From: an uncultured Eubacteriales bacterium
GTDB lineage: Bacteria; Bacillota_A; Clostridia; Christensenellales; Aristaeellaceae
Direction: 5' to 3'
Length of the DNA: 7,795 nucleotides
Assembly (NCBI GenBank): GCA_902795555.1
Contig: CADBLV010000157.1
Span: 1 to 7,795, forward strand
Made by a program: the position numbers and the translations under genes. The notes beneath the pieces are model-generated. The model ran no database searches. It was not told where the DNA came from and saw only the letters and a list, made by a program, of their open reading frames with translations. Every line of letters begins with the position of its first letter. Position 1 is the stretch's first letter. This document shows positions 2,779-7,795 of the stretch, piece after piece.

Positions 2779-2808
2779 ACCGTTCAGACACGCAAAACAA
2801 CCGTTCGG
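2779..2808 (+). promoter_or_regulatory. LytTR-type operator: two direct repeats, 21-bp period
   Basis: ACCGTTCAG (2779-2787) and ACCGTTCGG (2800-2808) are separated by exactly 12 bases. With GACA added, 11 of 12 bases agree (2779-2790 and 2800-2811). A pair of 9-bp direct repeats two helical turns apart is the known binding architecture of LytTR domains, for example AgrA and ComE sites of the ACAGTTAAG or ACnnTTnnG kind. The site is about 11 bp before a promoter-like -35 and belongs to the operon that encodes a LytTR regulator. Binding by that protein, and autoregulation, are inferred. Confidence 0.75.
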
Positions 2809-2819
2809 ACAAAAGACAG

Positions 2820-2849
2820 TTGTTCTGTTCATTTCGTTTATCATAAAAT
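2820..2849 (+). promoter_or_regulatory. Putative sigma-A promoter of the LytTR operon
   Basis: A weak -35 TTGTTC (2820-2825), an 18-base spacer and the -10 TAAAAT (2844-2849, 5 of 6 to consensus) lie in the only AT-rich stretch between the genes. TATCAT (2839-2844) is an alternative -10. A poor -35 just downstream of the LytTR repeats fits an activator-dependent promoter. Transcription would start near 2856, leaving about 90 nt of leader. The exact hexamers are uncertain. Confidence 0.5.
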
Positions 2850-2865
2850 AAGATTGTTATAACAG

Positions 2866-2935
2866 GATTGTCAATCCACCGAAAAAATGAAAGAGCGTGC
2901 CAATCCGATTGTCAATCCAACGAAAAATGAAAGAG
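2866..2935. repeat. Tandem 30-bp repeat containing a GATTGTCAATC palindrome
   Basis: Units 2866-2895 and 2907-2935 differ by one substitution and one base of indel. Each starts with the 11-bp palindrome GATTG-t-CAATC (2866-2876 and 2907-2917, 41 bp apart, about four helical turns) and ends in GAAAAA(A)TGAAAGAG. The second unit provides the SD-like AGAGG for the small membrane protein gene, so one duplication copied both a possible operator and a ribosome-binding segment. Another palindrome, TGTTATAACA, lies just before it (2855-2864). Confidence 0.7.
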
Positions 2936-2945
2936 GGTTTATACG

Positions 2946-3122
2946 ATGGATCTGAAAAAATGGACGACGGTGATTCCGATCCTTTCTGTCGCGGTTATGC
3001 TGATCTGGGGGCTGATTGCCAAGGACTGGTCCAAATGCTGGATTGCCGTGGTGGTCGGAGGCGCGATCACCGCTGTGATCAATGTCATGGCCAAAGATGA
3101 CAACGGAAAAGAGAAAAAATGA
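2946..3122 (+). CDS. Small two-helix membrane protein, 58 residues, first gene of the LytTR operon
   Basis: The frame encodes MDLKKWTTVIPILSVAVMLI and onward to a Lys-rich tail (KDDNGKEKK). Two hydrophobic segments, about residues 8-25 and 31-49, are joined by a short polar turn with Trp and Lys (AKDWSKCW). This suggests a helical hairpin with both ends cytoplasmic. AGAGGG (2932-2937) lies 8 bases before the ATG. The stop codon overlaps the next start as ATGA (3119-3122), so translation is coupled to the LytTR gene. I recognise no named family. Its position, promoter and coupling argue that it is a real component of the LytTR/DUF3021 system, perhaps a membrane sensor, a partner of DUF3021 or a small effector; the role is inference. 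A longer GTG-start frame across it (from 2897) yields a Cys/Asp-rich protein of no plausible character and was discarded. Confidence 0.75.
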   Translation: MDLKKWTTVIPILSVAVMLIWGLIAKDWSKCWIAVVVGGAITAVINVMAKDDNGKEKK

Positions 3123-3607
3123 GTAAACCCCTGAACATCCGCTTCGAGATCGATCCGGCCTGCGACGAACCGGAGGTGATCATCCGAAGCAGCCAGCGGA
3201 CGAAACTGGTCGAGCGCATTCTGAGCGCCGTGGAAGGCTGCACGCGGGATGCGAACCCGCCGATCGCGGCCTATCGGGGGGAGACACTGGTGATGCTGAA
3301 CCAGGAGGAGATTCTGCGGGTTTATACGGAAAGCAGGCGGCTGATGGTTCGAGCGGAATCCGGTGAATATGTTGTCAGGCAGCCGCTGCGGGATCTGGAA
3401 TCGGCGCTGAACGGGGAGAACTTTGTCCGGATCAGCCGGTTTGAGATTATCAACCTGCAGAAGGTTTCCGGATTTGACTTCAGCACCGCGGGCACGATCC
3501 GGGTGATATTCTCAGACGGGAATGTGACCTGGGTCGCCCGCCGGTATGTTCAGTCTATTCAGCAGACGCTGAAGAGACGGAGCGCAGGAGGTGAGCCTCA
3601 TGCGTAA
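3119..3607 (+). CDS. LytTR-domain transcriptional regulator (no receiver domain)
   Basis: The protein has 162 residues. Residues 1-55 form a short N-terminal region (IRFEIDPACDEPEVIIRSS...) like that of stand-alone LytTR regulators, without the phospho-accepting receiver of AgrA or LytR. Residues about 60-152 form the LytTR DNA-binding domain: EEILRVYTESRRLMVRAESG gives the first strands, and NFVRISRFEIINLQKV (101-116) matches the signature F-R-h-S/H-R-s-y-I-V-N. It acts in the cytoplasm at direct-repeat sites. In LytTR regulatory systems (HdrRM and BrsRM of Streptococcus mutans) a co-encoded membrane protein holds the regulator inactive, and release turns on the operon. Here the DUF3021 gene overlaps by 8 bp and the small membrane gene precedes with an ATGA overlap. 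The gene lacks a strong SD of its own, which supports coupling. The operator at 2779-2808 suggests autoregulation. Confidence 0.92.
   Translation: MSKPLNIRFEIDPACDEPEVIIRSSQRTKLVERILSAVEGCTRDANPPIAAYRGETLVMLNQEEILRVYTESRRLMVRAESGEYVVRQPLRDLESALNGENFVRISRFEIINLQKVSGFDFSTAGTIRVIFSDGNVTWVARRYVQSIQQTLKRRSAGGEPHA
3586..3594 (+). promoter_or_regulatory. Very strong SD deciding the DUF3021 start
   Basis: AGGAGGTGA is fully complementary to the 16S anti-SD and ends 5 bases before ATG 3600. A GTG at 3591 is in the same frame but lies within the SD itself, so it cannot be the start. Confidence 0.85.
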
Positions 3608-4058
3608 AAGAGCCCTGAAACTGGCCCTGATCGGTTTCCTGATGGGGATGGTGATCGGCAATCTGATTTCCTTCCTGTCGGGCGGAAACTTTGTCAACAC
3701 ACGGCTTGCATCCCTGACCGGCAGCGAAGCGCTGTCTGTGGTGCTGAATACCCTTTTATCCGGCTTCCTCGGGGCCGCGGCCATGGGAAGCACGGTGGTT
3801 TATGAAATCGAACGCTGGCCTTTGGCGGCGGTGTCCGCTGTGCACTATCTGATTGTGGAGATTTCCTATATCTGCGTTGCGCTGCCTCTAGGCTGGGTTC
3901 ACGATTTCCGCGAGCTGCTGATCATGCTCGGCATTCAGCTGGTGATCTACTTTATCATCTGGATGATCATGTATCTGCGATACAGGCGGCATGTGAAGCA
4001 ATTGAACGACCTGCTTGCAAAGAGCCGGGAAACGAAACCGTCCGAACCAACAAAATGA
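3600..4058 (+). CDS. DUF3021 family integral membrane protein
   Basis: The 152-residue protein has four hydrophobic helices at about 7-27, 44-67, 73-97 and 105-127. A basic N-terminus (MRKRALK) and a basic, polar tail (YRRHVKQLNDLLAKSRETK) place both ends in the cytoplasm. GIQLVIYFIIWMIMYLRYRR in helix 4 and VYEIERWPLAA before helix 3 are typical of DUF3021, whose genes usually sit directly downstream of a single-domain LytTR gene. In characterised LytTR regulatory systems the membrane partner antagonises the regulator, so a role as anti-activator or membrane sensor is likely; the signal is unknown. The start codon follows a perfect SD, suggesting strong translation relative to the regulator, as expected if the inhibitor must be in excess. 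The stop codon falls inside a second LytTR-like repeat (4058-4066). Confidence 0.88.
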   Translation: MRKRALKLALIGFLMGMVIGNLISFLSGGNFVNTRLASLTGSEALSVVLNTLLSGFLGAAAMGSTVVYEIERWPLAAVSAVHYLIVEISYICVALPLGWVHDFRELLIMLGIQLVIYFIIWMIMYLRYRRHVKQLNDLLAKSRETKPSEPTK

Positions 4059-4066
4059 CCGTTCAT
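4037..4066 (+). promoter_or_regulatory. Second LytTR-like operator, upstream of the phosphatase gene
   Basis: ACCGTCCGA (4037-4045) and ACCGTTCAT (4058-4066) again have a 21-bp period and match the ACCGTTC(A/G)G half-site at 7 and 8 of 9 positions. A weaker ACAGTTTCT follows at 4080, 22 bp on. The first half-site is inside the last DUF3021 codons (Pro147-Glu149) and the second begins on its stop codon. The pair ends 10 bp before a promoter-like -35. Regulation by the neighbouring LytTR protein is inferred and weaker than for the first site. Confidence 0.5.
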
Positions 4067-4076
4067 TCCCAAATCC

Positions 4077-4105
4077 TGTACAGTTTCTCCTGAATCGATT
4101 ATCAT
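4077..4105 (+). promoter_or_regulatory. Putative promoter of the receptor phosphatase gene
   Basis: TGTACA (4077-4082, 4 of 6), a 17-base spacer and TATCAT (4100-4105, 5 of 6) form a reasonable sigma-A promoter. Transcription would start near 4112, giving a leader of about 225 nt. TATCAT also occurs within the first LytTR promoter region (2839-2844). Confidence 0.5.
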
Positions 4106-4136
4106 CACAAAAGCAGGAACTTGCACAGGTGTGAAA

Positions 4137-4316
4137 GCTTCGTTTCCGAAAGCACGTTCAAACCCATCCGAACAACGAAAGAGAGTTTGTCCGGATCTAT
4201 TCCATCAAGGACAGGCAGAGCCGCACCGGCTGGATTGCCGGCTCTGTCAGCGGGATGCCGCAAGGCGAATAACCCGTGATGTAATGCTCAGCGGGGAAGA
4301 CTGATCCGATCTCCGC
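4137..4316 (+). other. Structured leader of the phosphatase mRNA (several stem-loops)
   Basis: Successive stems can be drawn: GCTTCG with CGAAaGC (4137-4153, one bulge); ATCCG-a-ACAA with TTGT-c-CGGAT (4166-4196, one mismatch); GGCAGAGCCG with CGGCTCTGTC (4214-4248, one G-U); GCGG-gatg-CCGC (4250-4261); and GCGGGGA with TCTCCGC (4291-4316, one G-U), which ends 3 bases before the SD AAGGAG (4320-4325). None has a T-run. No known riboswitch signature was recognised. GC-rich DNA forms some hairpins by chance, so the function is open. Confidence 0.4.
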
Positions 4317-4335
4317 CGGAAGGAGCTATTTTCAG

Positions 4336-6423
4336 ATGATCAGCATGATTCTGCAGATGTCCGGGGCTACGGCGCTGTATATCATCCTGACAGGGGTTGT
4401 GTGGCATTTATGGCAGAAAAAAACAGACCACACCCTTTGGATGAAGCTGGCGGTGGGCCTGTTTTACGGACTGTGTTCCATCGCTTCCAACCATATCGGG
4501 ATCAATTACGGCGCGATGCTGCTGAACGTGCGGGACATCGGGCCCATCGCGGCGGGGCTGTTCTTCGACCCGGTTTCCGGCATCGTCTCCGGGCTGATCG
4601 GCGGGATCGAACGATATGTGATCGGAGAATTCTTCGGGATCGGCTCCTTCACCCGGGTAGCCTGCGGGATTTCCACCTGCCTGGCAGGCGTTCTGGCCGC
4701 GGCGCTGCACAAATGGGTGTACGCAGGGCATCGGCCCTCCGTGTCCCATTCGCTGTTTCTGGGCGCCGTGATGGAAGTGTTCCATATGTACGTGGTGCTG
4801 ATTACCCATCGGAATCAGATGGCCATGGCCTACGCGGTGGTTCAGACCTGCGCGCTGCCCATGATCATTTTCACGGGGCTGGGCACGGCCGGATGCTCCG
4901 CGATGATTCTGCGGCTTTCCGGGCTGAAGGGGGCCGTTCATCCCTGGACGCATCGGCGGGATACGCCCATTCATGTGCGCTTTCAGCGATGGCTGCTGGT
5001 GGTGACCGTTGGGCTGTTTGCGGTAAATTCCTTTGTGACCTTCAATCTGGAACGTCGAATGGCCTATCAGAACGCCGAGGCCAGCCTTCGATATGAAGCG
5101 GAGGATTTTCAGAAGCGATTTGAAGAAGAGGGAGATATTGAGATTTTCAGCGCCCATTCCGCCGACAGCTACATCAGCTCCCGCGGGCTGTATTACGCGG
5201 TGGACGCAGCGAAGGGACAGGCTGTCGCCGGATATGATCTGACGGAACCGGCGCAGGTTCCGCAGGAGGAAGTGAACCTCATCAAAGAAAACGCGGGAAA
5301 AGGCGCTTTTACGATGCGGATCGCCCGACTTTCTTCCCGGGAATATCTCTGCACTTCGGCGAAGCTGAACGAAACATACTATATTCTGGTGTGTACGCCG
5401 CTGAGCAGCGTGTACAACGGAAGCCAGGACCGGATCTATGAGACGCTGTTTTCGGAAATCCTCATCTTCACTGCCCTGTATCTGCTGATTGCCATGCTAG
5501 TCGACCGGATGGTGGTTCGCAATCTGGACCGGGTTAACGGAAGCCTGAACCGGATTACACAGGGAGATCTGGAAGAGACCGTGACAGTGGAAGAATCCTC
5601 TGAATTCACCAAGCTGTCCGGGGATATCAACATGACGGTGGCCTCCCTGAGGGGATATATCGACGCGGAGAAAAAACGGATGGAGGAGGAGCTGCGGCTG
5701 GCGACCACCATCCAGGAATCTGCCCTGCCGCGCATCTTCCACTTTCCGAGACAGGACTTTGAAATCTATGCCCTGATGAATCCGGCCAGACAGGTCGGCG
5801 GGGATTTTTACGATTTCTTCTTCATCGACGGGAGCCATCTGGCCCTGGTGATTGCCGACGTATCCGGAAAGAGCGTTCCCGCGGCGCTGTTCATGATGCG
5901 GGCGAAAACCGCCATCAAGAACTATGCCAGATCCGGGAATTCCGCGGCGGAGGTGCTGACGCACGCGAATCAAACCCTGTGCGAAGGCAATGACGCGGAG
6001 ATGTTCGTCACCGTGTGGCTGGGGATTATCGATCTGGAAAGCGGGAAGATGCAGTGTTCCAACGCGGGGCATGAATATCCCCTGCTGATGCGGCGGGGAG
6101 AGGAATATGCCGTTTACAAAGACCGGCATACCCTGCCTCTGGCGGCCATGGAAGGCGCCCGGATGCGGGAATATGAAATCCTGCTGCAGCCGGGAGATCA
6201 GATTTTCGTTTATACGGACGGGATTCCGGAAGCGAACAACGAAAGCGGCGCATTCTACGGGGTTGAACGGCTGACCGCGAAACTGAATGAGCTGCGGGGG
6301 CAGCCCCAGAAGGATATTCTGGAAGGCGTCCTGGCGGACATTAAAGCCTTTGCCGGAAAGGCGGAACAGTTTGACGACATCACGATGGTCGGGTTCTCCT
6401 ATTTCGGGCCCGACAGAGGATGA
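4336..6423 (+). CDS. Membrane receptor PP2C-type Ser/Thr phosphatase (5TM-LytS / HAMP / SpoIIE)
   Basis: The protein has 695 residues. Residues 1-195 hold several helices with the LytS-type 5TM signature VRDIGPIAAGLFFDPVSG, then GLIGGIERY (65-93) and the following GIGSFTRVACGIS. A further helix (about 218-236) leads to an extracytoplasmic segment (about 240-370, Cache-like in arrangement), then a helix at 373-390. A HAMP linker (about 391-445) and coiled coil (EKKRMEEELRLATTIQESALP) connect to an RsbU/SpoIIE-type PP2C domain (about 460-692). Metal-binding motifs are intact: GGDFYD (488-493), ADVSGKS (507-513), YTDGI (626-630) and FDDIT (679-683). It likely dephosphorylates a STAS-type anti-anti-sigma protein in response to an external ligand, but no such partner is in the window. 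AAGGAG precedes ATG 4336 by 10 bases. The upstream promoter carries a LytTR-like repeat. Confidence 0.9.
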   Translation: MISMILQMSGATALYIILTGVVWHLWQKKTDHTLWMKLAVGLFYGLCSIASNHIGINYGAMLLNVRDIGPIAAGLFFDPVSGIVSGLIGGIERYVIGEFFGIGSFTRVACGISTCLAGVLAAALHKWVYAGHRPSVSHSLFLGAVMEVFHMYVVLITHRNQMAMAYAVVQTCALPMIIFTGLGTAGCSAMILRLSGLKGAVHPWTHRRDTPIHVRFQRWLLVVTVGLFAVNSFVTFNLERRMAYQNAEASLRYEAEDFQKRFEEEGDIEIFSAHSADSYISSRGLYYAVDAAKGQAVAGYDLTEPAQVPQEEVNLIKENAGKGAFTMRIARLSSREYLCTSAKLNETYYILVCTPLSSVYNGSQDRIYETLFSEILIFTALYLLIAMLVDRMVVRNLDRVNGSLNRITQGDLEETVTVEESSEFTKLSGDINMTVASLRGYIDAEKKRMEEELRLATTIQESALPRIFHFPRQDFEIYALMNPARQVGGDFYDFFFIDGSHLALVIADVSGKSVPAALFMMRAKTAIKNYARSGNSAAEVLTHANQTLCEGNDAEMFVTVWLGIIDLESGKMQCSNAGHEYPLLMRRGEEYAVYKDRHTLPLAAMEGARMREYEILLQPGDQIFVYTDGIPEANNESGAFYGVERLTAKLNELRGQPQKDILEGVLADIKAFAGKAEQFDDITMVGFSYFGPDRG

Positions 6424-6473
6424 TAAGAAAGGAAGTGGCTTGGTTGACTGCCTATGTGTATCAGAAGCAGGAC

Positions 6474-7795
6474 ATGAAAAAAACCATCCGGATGTTGATG
6501 ATCGCGCTGACGCTTCTGACCATGCTGTCGGCTGTCATTTCCGCATTTGCGGAAGGACAGCCTTCGCTTGTGCTGGACCGGAGCGCGATGACTTTGGACA
6601 AGGGGAAAACCCTGAAGCTGAAATACACGCTGGAAAACGTGGAAAAGCCGAAAAAGGCGAAAGTGACCTGGGAAAGCTCCGACACGGCGGTCGCCACCGT
6701 GAAAGGCGGCGCCGTGAAGGCGGTGGACGCCGGGGAGGCTGTGATCACCTGCACGGCCACGCTGGAGGACGGCAACGTTCTGACTGCCACAGCGTCGGTG
6801 AAAGTGGTGATCCCTGTGAAGGGGATCATAATCCTGACCAAAGCCAATACCGCCGTTCCCAGCGGGAGGAGCTTCCCGATTGAATACGCGATTCAGCCGG
6901 AAAATGCCACCGATCAGACGGTGGCCTGGCAGAGCAGCAATGAACAGGTGATGACCATCGGGGAGGACGGCACCGCGACCGCCCTGGCGGAAGGAAAGGT
7001 TCAGATCACCGCAGAGACGGCCAACGGAAAAAAGGCGAAGCTGTCTCTGACCGTTACTCCCTATGCACCGGACTTGGAAGCGGTGATTCAGAAGGCGGCT
7101 TACAATCCCGAGGACAGAACGCTGAAAGTGACCTGGAAGAATCACGGAACCCAGACCATTACGGGCCTGGATCTTCGTATCTGTCCGCTTGACGCGGAGG
7201 GGAACATCCTTCTTTTCGGAGAAGGGGAGGAGGACGAGCTGATTCTGGAGCAGCGGGTTTTCCATCTGTTCCCTCAGGCCGCTGCCGGAGACACCGTCAA
7301 CTCGGCGTTCCCGATCGGGAAGGACTATGCCGCGGCTGACAACATCTTGATCACCGTGATGCGGATCGTGCATGAAGACGGCTCCGAAATCGTGCTGCCG
7401 GATGACCGGCTGTGCTGGTATTCCCTGAAAGGGAACGCTTATGTCGGGCCGCCGGAAAACAGCGAACCTTATGCTGTGCCTTCGGAAGAAACCCTGGCCG
7501 CGGCGCAGGAAACGCGATTCGGATTCAGCGCGGCGCCGCTTTACGGAGAGACGGCGCCGGCCTACGGATATGCCCACAGCGGTTTCCTGATTCTGGAGAT
7601 TGAGGCCGGCTCCCCGGCGGAGGAAATGGGCCTGGCCGTCGGGGATCTGATCTTCAGCGTGAACGATACTCCCTATTCCCGGGAACCGTATCTGATGACC
7701 CTGGCCGCGGCCGAACTGGCCCAGAACAGGCCGGTGAATATCCTGATTGAACGGGAGGACGAAATCCTGGAGCTGACCATTGAACCTGACGGGGA
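6474..7795 (+). CDS. Secreted Big2 (Ig-like) and PDZ domain protein, 3' end outside window
   Basis: The frame is open to the right edge, giving 440 residues. MKKTIRMLMIALTLLTMLSA and the following VISAFA|EG form a classic Sec signal peptide. Two bacterial Ig-like (Big2) domains follow: about 30-113 (TWESSDTAVATVKGG, AVDAGEAVITC) and 117-196 (AWQSSNEQV, GTATALAEGKVQITA). Residues about 198-320 form a beta-rich region of unknown type (KVTWKNHGTQTITGLDLRICPLD). A PDZ domain lies at about 345-438, where FLILEIEAGSPAEEMGLAVGD gives the carboxylate-binding and AGSPAExxGL elements. No protease domain is seen, though one could lie downstream. Start choice is uncertain. The MKK start fits the signal peptide but has only a weak SD. 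ATG 6420 overlaps the phosphatase stop (ATGA), and TTG 6444 has AAAGGAAG upstream. Both would add a short N-terminal extension. The overlap suggests an operon with the phosphatase. Confidence 0.8.
   Translation, partial: MKKTIRMLMIALTLLTMLSAVISAFAEGQPSLVLDRSAMTLDKGKTLKLKYTLENVEKPKKAKVTWESSDTAVATVKGGAVKAVDAGEAVITCTATLEDGNVLTATASVKVVIPVKGIIILTKANTAVPSGRSFPIEYAIQPENATDQTVAWQSSNEQVMTIGEDGTATALAEGKVQITAETANGKKAKLSLTVTPYAPDLEAVIQKAAYNPEDRTLKVTWKNHGTQTITGLDLRICPLDAEGNILLFGEGEEDELILEQRVFHLFPQAAAGDTVNSAFPIGKDYAAADNILITVMRIVHEDGSEIVLPDDRLCWYSLKGNAYVGPPENSEPYAVPSEETLAAAQETRFGFSAAPLYGETAPAYGYAHSGFLILEIEAGSPAEEMGLAVGDLIFSVNDTPYSREPYLMTLAAAELAQNRPVNILIEREDEILELTIEPDG

Follow-up and report, generated by a model that had tools for sequence, protein, structure and literature searches.

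Which protein does a nearly perfect pair of direct repeats serve when it lies in front of an operon that itself encodes a LytTR regulator, and which genes does it control? A preliminary description of this DNA had read the pair as a LytTR operator and had considered autoregulation very likely. We examined both questions in the whole stretch of 7795 bp (the window), in 55 loci of relatives and in 200 genomes from the family of one relative (G005).

Operators and gene set of the locus

The repeat pair ACCGTTCAG-N12-ACCGTTCGG (operator 1) was found exactly as previously described, with half-sites at 2779-2787 and 2800-2808 separated by 12 bases, and the extended identity of 11 of 12 positions holds with ACA. 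Two half-site pairs of the same spacing with up to 3 mismatches are present in the window, whereas 200 dinucleotide shuffles gave 0.01 on average. The other pair, ACCGTCCGA-N12-ACCGTTCAT (operator 2), has imperfect half-sites; it was missed in the preliminary description, as were a 58-aa gene and a DUF3021 partner (Table 1). Against a matrix that had been trained with 36 operators from relatives and with no window site, operator 1 scored 42.4 bits and operator 2 23.8 bits, compared to 0.8 for the next best position in the window and 2.2 for the best of the first-order Markov resamples (twenty per relative's upstream region, regions >100 bp only). As the 36 sites were picked by motif match, these scores are a test of the window but not of how the motif was chosen.

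Table 1. Features of the LytTR locus in the window
Feature	Position	Strand	Basis
Operator 1, ACCGTTCAG-N12-ACCGTTCGG, two putative LytTR half-sites, 21-bp period	2779..2808	+	Direct repeat search; matrix 42.4 bits
Candidate -10 region for the 58-aa/LytTR/DUF3021 operon	2839..2849	+	Hexamers 3´ of repeat 2; all-site peak at +33
Leader with tandem near-duplicate of ~40 bp (GATTGTCAATCC...GAAAAATGAAAGAG twice)	2866..2938	+	Repeat search
58-aa protein, two predicted TM segments, first operon gene	2946..3122	+	ORF, hydropathy, profile search
LytTR regulator, 162 aa, receiver-less	3119..3607	+	Pfam LytTR 2.8e-19; AlphaFold2 model
DUF3021 membrane protein, four predicted TM segments	3600..4058	+	Pfam DUF3021 2.4e-26; hydropathy
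Operator 2, ACCGTCCGA-N12-ACCGTTCAT	4037..4066	+	Pair search with up to 3 mismatches; 23.8 bits
Operator 2 promoter: TGTACA, 17 bp, TATCAT (4100-4105)	4077..4105	+	Promoter scan
5TM-5TMR_LYT / SpoIIE PP2C-type phosphatase, 695 aa; putative operator 2 target	4336..6423	+	Pfam
Big_2/PDZ protein, probably secreted; extends past the window end; start may be 6474	6420..7793	+	Domain scan

CotH-like, HAD and epimerase genes lie 5´ to operator 1, which is followed by the 58-aa ORF, the LytTR and DUF3021 genes, operator 2, and the phosphatase and Big_2/PDZ genes. The stop codon of the 58-aa gene is overlapped by the LytTR gene start (AAATGAGTA at 3117) and the LytTR stop by the DUF3021 gene start (CTCATGCGTAA at 3597), as expected of a single operon. 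Pfam detected only a LytTR domain (residues 57-151) and no receiver domain in the 162-aa regulator. Thus, the operon does encode a receiver-less LytTR protein as described before, but it opens with the previously unmentioned 58-aa ORF. The AlphaFold2 model of the regulator (mean pLDDT 82, lower over the first 50 residues) resembles LytTR structures including DNA-bound AgrA (3bs1), suggesting that the DNA-binding fold is shared with AgrA and ComE, LytTR response regulators that have direct-repeat operators. Unlike these, the regulator has no receiver, and no histidine-kinase domain was found with Pfam among the eight window proteins scanned, so that the combination of receiver and histidine kinase that marks a two-component system is missing from these eight.

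A receiver-less LytTR regulator with a DUF3021 membrane protein encoded directly downstream is instead the gene set of a LytTR Regulatory System (LRS), and the DUF3021 partner is what makes the locus count as one. LRS are a widespread sensory class that, as of 2018, had been characterized only in Streptococcus mutans (PMC6193735), where HdrRM and BrsRM likewise pair a soluble receiver-less LytTR protein with a membrane protein encoded after it (Zou et al. 2018, PMC6193735). The S. mutans membrane protein is of the DUF3021 or DUF2154 type in four of five cases, and deletion of each of the five derepressed its own operon (PMC6193735); by analogy, the DUF3021 protein is probably the inhibitor of the LytTR regulator here. 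Three features set the locus apart from the systems described in that paper: the first gene encodes a 58-aa membrane protein, a second operator follows DUF3021, and the half-sites read ACCGTTYRG compared to ACCNCTTAN in many Table 3 entries (PMC6193735).

The promoter at operator 1 is weak. No good -35 accompanies this operator, in agreement with the weak -35 promoter reported previously, but the -10 is ambiguous, with three candidates counted from repeat 2 (TATCAT, +30; CATAAA, +33; TAAAAT, +35), and a consensus promoter scan of the operator strand called no promoter there. At operator 2, TATCAT is found exactly 33 nt downstream and the TGTACA at +10 is a weak -35 (4/6 to TTGACA). The first repeat of this operator lies inside the end of the DUF3021 coding sequence, and the second starts at the last base of the TGA stop. 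Promoter-like sites between 2700 and 4400 numbered 2, compared to a mean of 1.0 in shuffles, and a terminator-like hairpin was detected at neither operator 1 nor operator 2. The near-duplicate in the leader contains a AAAAATGAAAGAG stretch and, by eye, its first copy could start a short ORF overlapping the start of the 58-aa gene. We also noted that ~230 bp (4106-4335) separate the -10 of operator 2 from the phosphatase start; an inverted repeat near 4213-4241 was seen by eye in a region where the repeat tool listed none, and Rfam gave no match at the gathering threshold, including for 4106-4335.

Operator sequence and placement in relatives

The 55 loci, mostly from Lachnospiraceae and other Clostridia of the ruminant gut, were collected by scanning genome contigs once with a profile of 24 aligned LytTR proteins. 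ACCGTTCRK pairs with up to 2 mismatches gave 29 hits at a gap of 12, with the other gaps (range 5-24) giving 0-4 hits apiece, bearing out the direct-repeat geometry that had been ascribed to the site. Fifty sites, each within 2 mismatches of an ACCGTTYR pair and including both window sites and regulator-distant sites, give the consensus TRACCGTTYRGAC-N4-AAAACGACCGTTYRG. In 20 of these 50 sites, the distance from the second 9-mer to the start of a -10 (at least 5/6 to TATAAT) is exactly 33 nt, forming a sharp peak, while a -35 (at least 5/6 to TTGACA) is present at +10 in only three. In the published LRS, the repeats precede the -35 by 10 bp and the spacer is 17 bp in many rows of Table 3 (PMC6193735), which gives the same distance from repeat to -10.

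Across 54 loci (L055 was excluded as incomplete), the operator lies upstream of the regulator in 12, just after DUF3021 in 22, two of which have it in both places, and upstream but facing away in four. At least one operator is adjacent in 36/54 loci and none in 18/54, four of the latter being distant Bacilli; siteless relatives may have far-upstream promoters or very degenerate repeats. In nine of the 22 downstream operators, the first base is also the last of the DUF3021 stop codon. The preliminary description had proposed conservation in front of orthologous operons as a check; this is found in 12/54 loci, but the position after DUF3021 is more frequent. For these counts, L017 and L046 were assigned by hand to the position after DUF3021 and L040, L041, L043 and L044 to the upstream position, owing to a missed DUF3021 frame, a frameshift, a misplaced start of a fused regulator or an 11-bp gap. 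An upstream pair in L053 (4449) was excluded as spurious, and the near-duplicates L018/L021, L024/L029, L033/L034 and L040/L041 were counted separately. The upstream sequences of L002 (133 bp) and L010 are shorter than 300 bp, which is short enough for a site to go unnoticed.

Placement also varies between close relatives. In the small clade of the window (SH-aLRT 88), the operator is upstream in L001, downstream in L002 and lacking in L006, and the minimum number of changes on the weakly supported tree (17/50 inner branches starred; L046 and L055 left out) is seven for the upstream and 15 for the downstream placement. A motif-free scan of the 36 loci in which no site lies upstream or divergently revealed no general excess of period-21 repeats, with period 21 in 3 loci and other periods between 13 and 32 in 0-4 loci; a 40-locus version of the scan looked enriched because four divergent loci were included.

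Many of the downstream operators are combined with a hairpin. With G-T pairing permitted, and a single mismatch where the stem was longer, we detected a stem-loop with a T-rich tail between operator and -10 (for example CCCGAAAGTATTTACTTTCGGG followed by a T-rich stretch) at 14 of 22 downstream sites, compared to 2 of 13 upstream sites (the hairpin-less site of the window is among the 13) and 0 of 4 divergent sites. In 13 of the 14, the hairpin follows the second repeat without a gap. Perfect stems of length at least 7 starting at base 1-2 are found at 9/22 downstream sites, with 0.015 expected from shuffles, and at 1/11 upstream and 0/4 divergent sites. We read the hairpin as a probable terminator of the LRS transcript that occupies the place of the -35 in the promoter of the following gene. 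No word starting with "terminator" is present in the main text of PMC6193735, and a fused operator, hairpin and -10 is not described in the titles and abstract openings of the literature searched, which covers few subscription papers.

In the 200 family genomes, the sites track the regulator. Fifteen genomes have a LytTR match with E of at most 1e-25, and in eight of the 15 a match falls below 1e-40. Exact ACCGTTYR pairs also occur in 15 genomes, six of the eight with a close LytTR relative and nine of the other 192 (Fisher 1.6e-6), a test that is partly circular because the pattern was widened to Y after the loci of six of the eight genomes had been seen. The total of exact matches is 18, the same as for a reversed control that has none in the eight genomes, so the signal sits in the distribution only and not in the total. 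The narrower ACCGTTCR pairs are found in 3/8 and 3/192 genomes (Fisher 8e-4), and the half-site suggested earlier does find sites in relatives. With one mismatch, nine regulator-bearing genomes gave 22 matches, several of which look un-promoter-like, and the reversed control gave 8.

Genes adjoining the operators

The 58-aa protein matched no database family above the curated cut-off. SPC12 was rejected as a family for it, with sub-cut-off matches to 7 of 15 members (best 0.0016), as were other families that each matched one to four members below cut-off and BrkB/YihY-like membrane protein, a database label on one relative. In the family genomes, matches to its alignment A2 at E below 1e-15 occur in 7/200, five of them among the eight regulator-bearing genomes (Fisher 4.5e-7); three of those five supplied rows of A2, and without the contributing genomes the counts are 2/5 and 2/192 (Fisher 0.003).

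We counted 13 genome loci of the 58-aa family at E below 1e-9 in the 200 genomes plus 27 chosen for carrying the regulator, leaving out eight weaker matches and one further match in G200 (E 2e-6 to 7e-4, within longer frames). Eight of the 13 lie under an operator. The gene is directly behind it in G200, G003, G002 and G216, after one intervening gene in G004 and G007, and 2.2 kb downstream in G165; in G005, it belongs to a second LRS operon with a 2-mismatch site before the first gene. Only a weak 3-mismatch site was seen in G083, and no convincing operator in the flanking sequence examined for G119, G128, G207 and G214. This recurrence points to the small membrane protein as a recurrent LRS partner.

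The 26 downstream or divergent sites in relatives yielded 22 with a following ORF, 17 of which were scanned with Pfam. Receiver-domain proteins are the most frequent scanned family (5/17; L003, L014, L020, L025 and L035); these proteins have ~270 aa, a C-terminal receiver and an N-terminal region without a confident Pfam family. The others include ABC transporter ATPases (L009, L049), a sub-threshold ABC2 membrane match (L029), DUF4854 (L010, L017), DUF3798 (L015), DUF2225 (L019) and Flg_new_2/LRR_5 (L018, L021), and no Pfam family was found for the ORF in L007, L011 and L030. In L041 (1034-2725) and L044 (3570-5342), the two fused regulators scanned with Pfam, LytTR is joined to a receiver and GGDEF, with DUF3021 downstream and a similar operator upstream; L040 and L043 were grouped with them. 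These fusions are a possible link of LRS to cyclic-di-GMP.

For the genes after operator 2, the phosphatase, whose HAMP match is sub-threshold, was not supported as a conserved target: the two full-length relatives with flanks (G005 and G002, 54% identity) have no operator with up to 3 mismatches within 1.5 kb on either side. Big_2/PDZ relatives (E up to 1e-30, up to 8 candidates scored per genome) are present in at least two of the 200 family genomes, G005 and G083, both among the eight regulator-bearing ones and both with an operator upstream of one copy. The G005 relative (53% identity) has a 1-mismatch operator ~140 bp before the frame; no operator accompanies its partial paralogue, which is on a different contig. 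In G083, where the relative was matched in two pieces, a 2-mismatch operator lies ~430 bp upstream with TATAGT at +34. We also noted that contig 33 of G005 (L114) carries two LRS and four operators. The second LRS, with the 58-aa gene, adjoins the Big_2/PDZ gene, with three operators within ~2.6 kb, one pair of them back to back between that gene and a 371-aa gene preceding the LRS; the fourth operator is ~11 kb off, at the other LRS.

A probable self-activating switch and its alternatives

The operators, their geometry, the gene order and the recurrence in relatives can all be read from the DNA itself, and from them we infer LytTR binding, activation, DUF3021 inhibition and a signal. We consider it probable that the locus is a DUF3021-type LRS whose LytTR protein activates both its own operon, from operator 1, and the neighbouring genes, from operator 2, and is inhibited by DUF3021. 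The regulator would bind both half-sites of each operator on one helix face and recruit RNA polymerase to promoters with a -10 ~33 nt downstream and a poor -35, for which the operators would compensate. Operator 1 would drive the 58-aa/LytTR/DUF3021 operon, giving positive feedback, and operator 2 the phosphatase and Big_2/PDZ genes. DUF3021 would keep the regulator inactive at the membrane until a signal releases it, whereupon the switch would turn on itself and its neighbour together. The LRS class is reported to self-activate via such repeats, with HdrR autoactivation described in S. mutans (PMC6193735). Several observations count against the model: the -10 of operator 1 departs from the optimal +33, an upstream site is present in only 12/54 relatives and none is adjacent in 18/54, the total of exact matches in the family genomes equals that of the reversed control, and the two full-length phosphatase relatives have no operator in their 1.5-kb flanks.

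The less canonical spacing at operator 1, together with the fact that the site of most relatives is not at the regulator's own promoter, would also suit a regulator for which operator 1 is a site of self-repression and only the neighbour, through operator 2, is activated. Such negative feedback is unlikely, given that both operators lie upstream of their promoter at about equal distance and that the S. mutans LRS regulators activate their own operons (PMC6193735). It is very unlikely that both operators are targets of some LytTR protein of this genome other than the adjacent one. LRS cross-regulation has been reported in S. mutans (PMC6193735), and the two LRS on one contig in G005 offer an occasion for it, but the sites track this LytTR subfamily across the 200 family genomes and adjoin it in 36/54 loci. 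Chance repeats with no regulatory role are scarcely credible when shuffled windows have a mean of 0.01 such pairs and resampled sequence reaches at most 2.2 bits against the 42.4 and 23.8 bits of the two operators; the imperfect half-sites of operator 2, which lie partly in coding sequence, are the one point in favour, and nothing at operator 1 speaks for it.

For the self-activating LRS, the reading of the repeats as a LytTR operator before its own LytTR operon is thus well supported by comparison and fits the known class (PMC6193735). Autoregulation is likely here, but the very likely loop of the preliminary description is not the commonest arrangement among relatives. That the locus is a new LRS with a second operator is well supported, and the type of switch was already known. 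The placement of the operator in relatives is partly new: it is more often at the neighbour gene, and often with a terminator-like hairpin in the place of the -35, in contrast to the LRS described in PMC6193735.

Tentatively, and as a possibility that we do not favour over a narrower reading, LRS in these gut Clostridia may be mainly a local, portable switch for the adjoining gene. Operator, DUF3021 stop, terminator and -10 would be fused within ~70 bp, the hairpin occupying the place of the -35, and the element would end the regulator transcript and start that of the target only with activator bound; the 58-aa protein would be either an additional, third part of the LRS or one of its standard outputs. 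The locus and its relatives provide a sharply defined operator with a -10 at +33 that predicts targets. Placement at the neighbour gene being commoner than at the regulator, the published view of positive feedback as conserved throughout LRS (PMC6193735) is to be qualified, and the comparative findings on operator placement and the small protein are of more interest than the new LRS itself.
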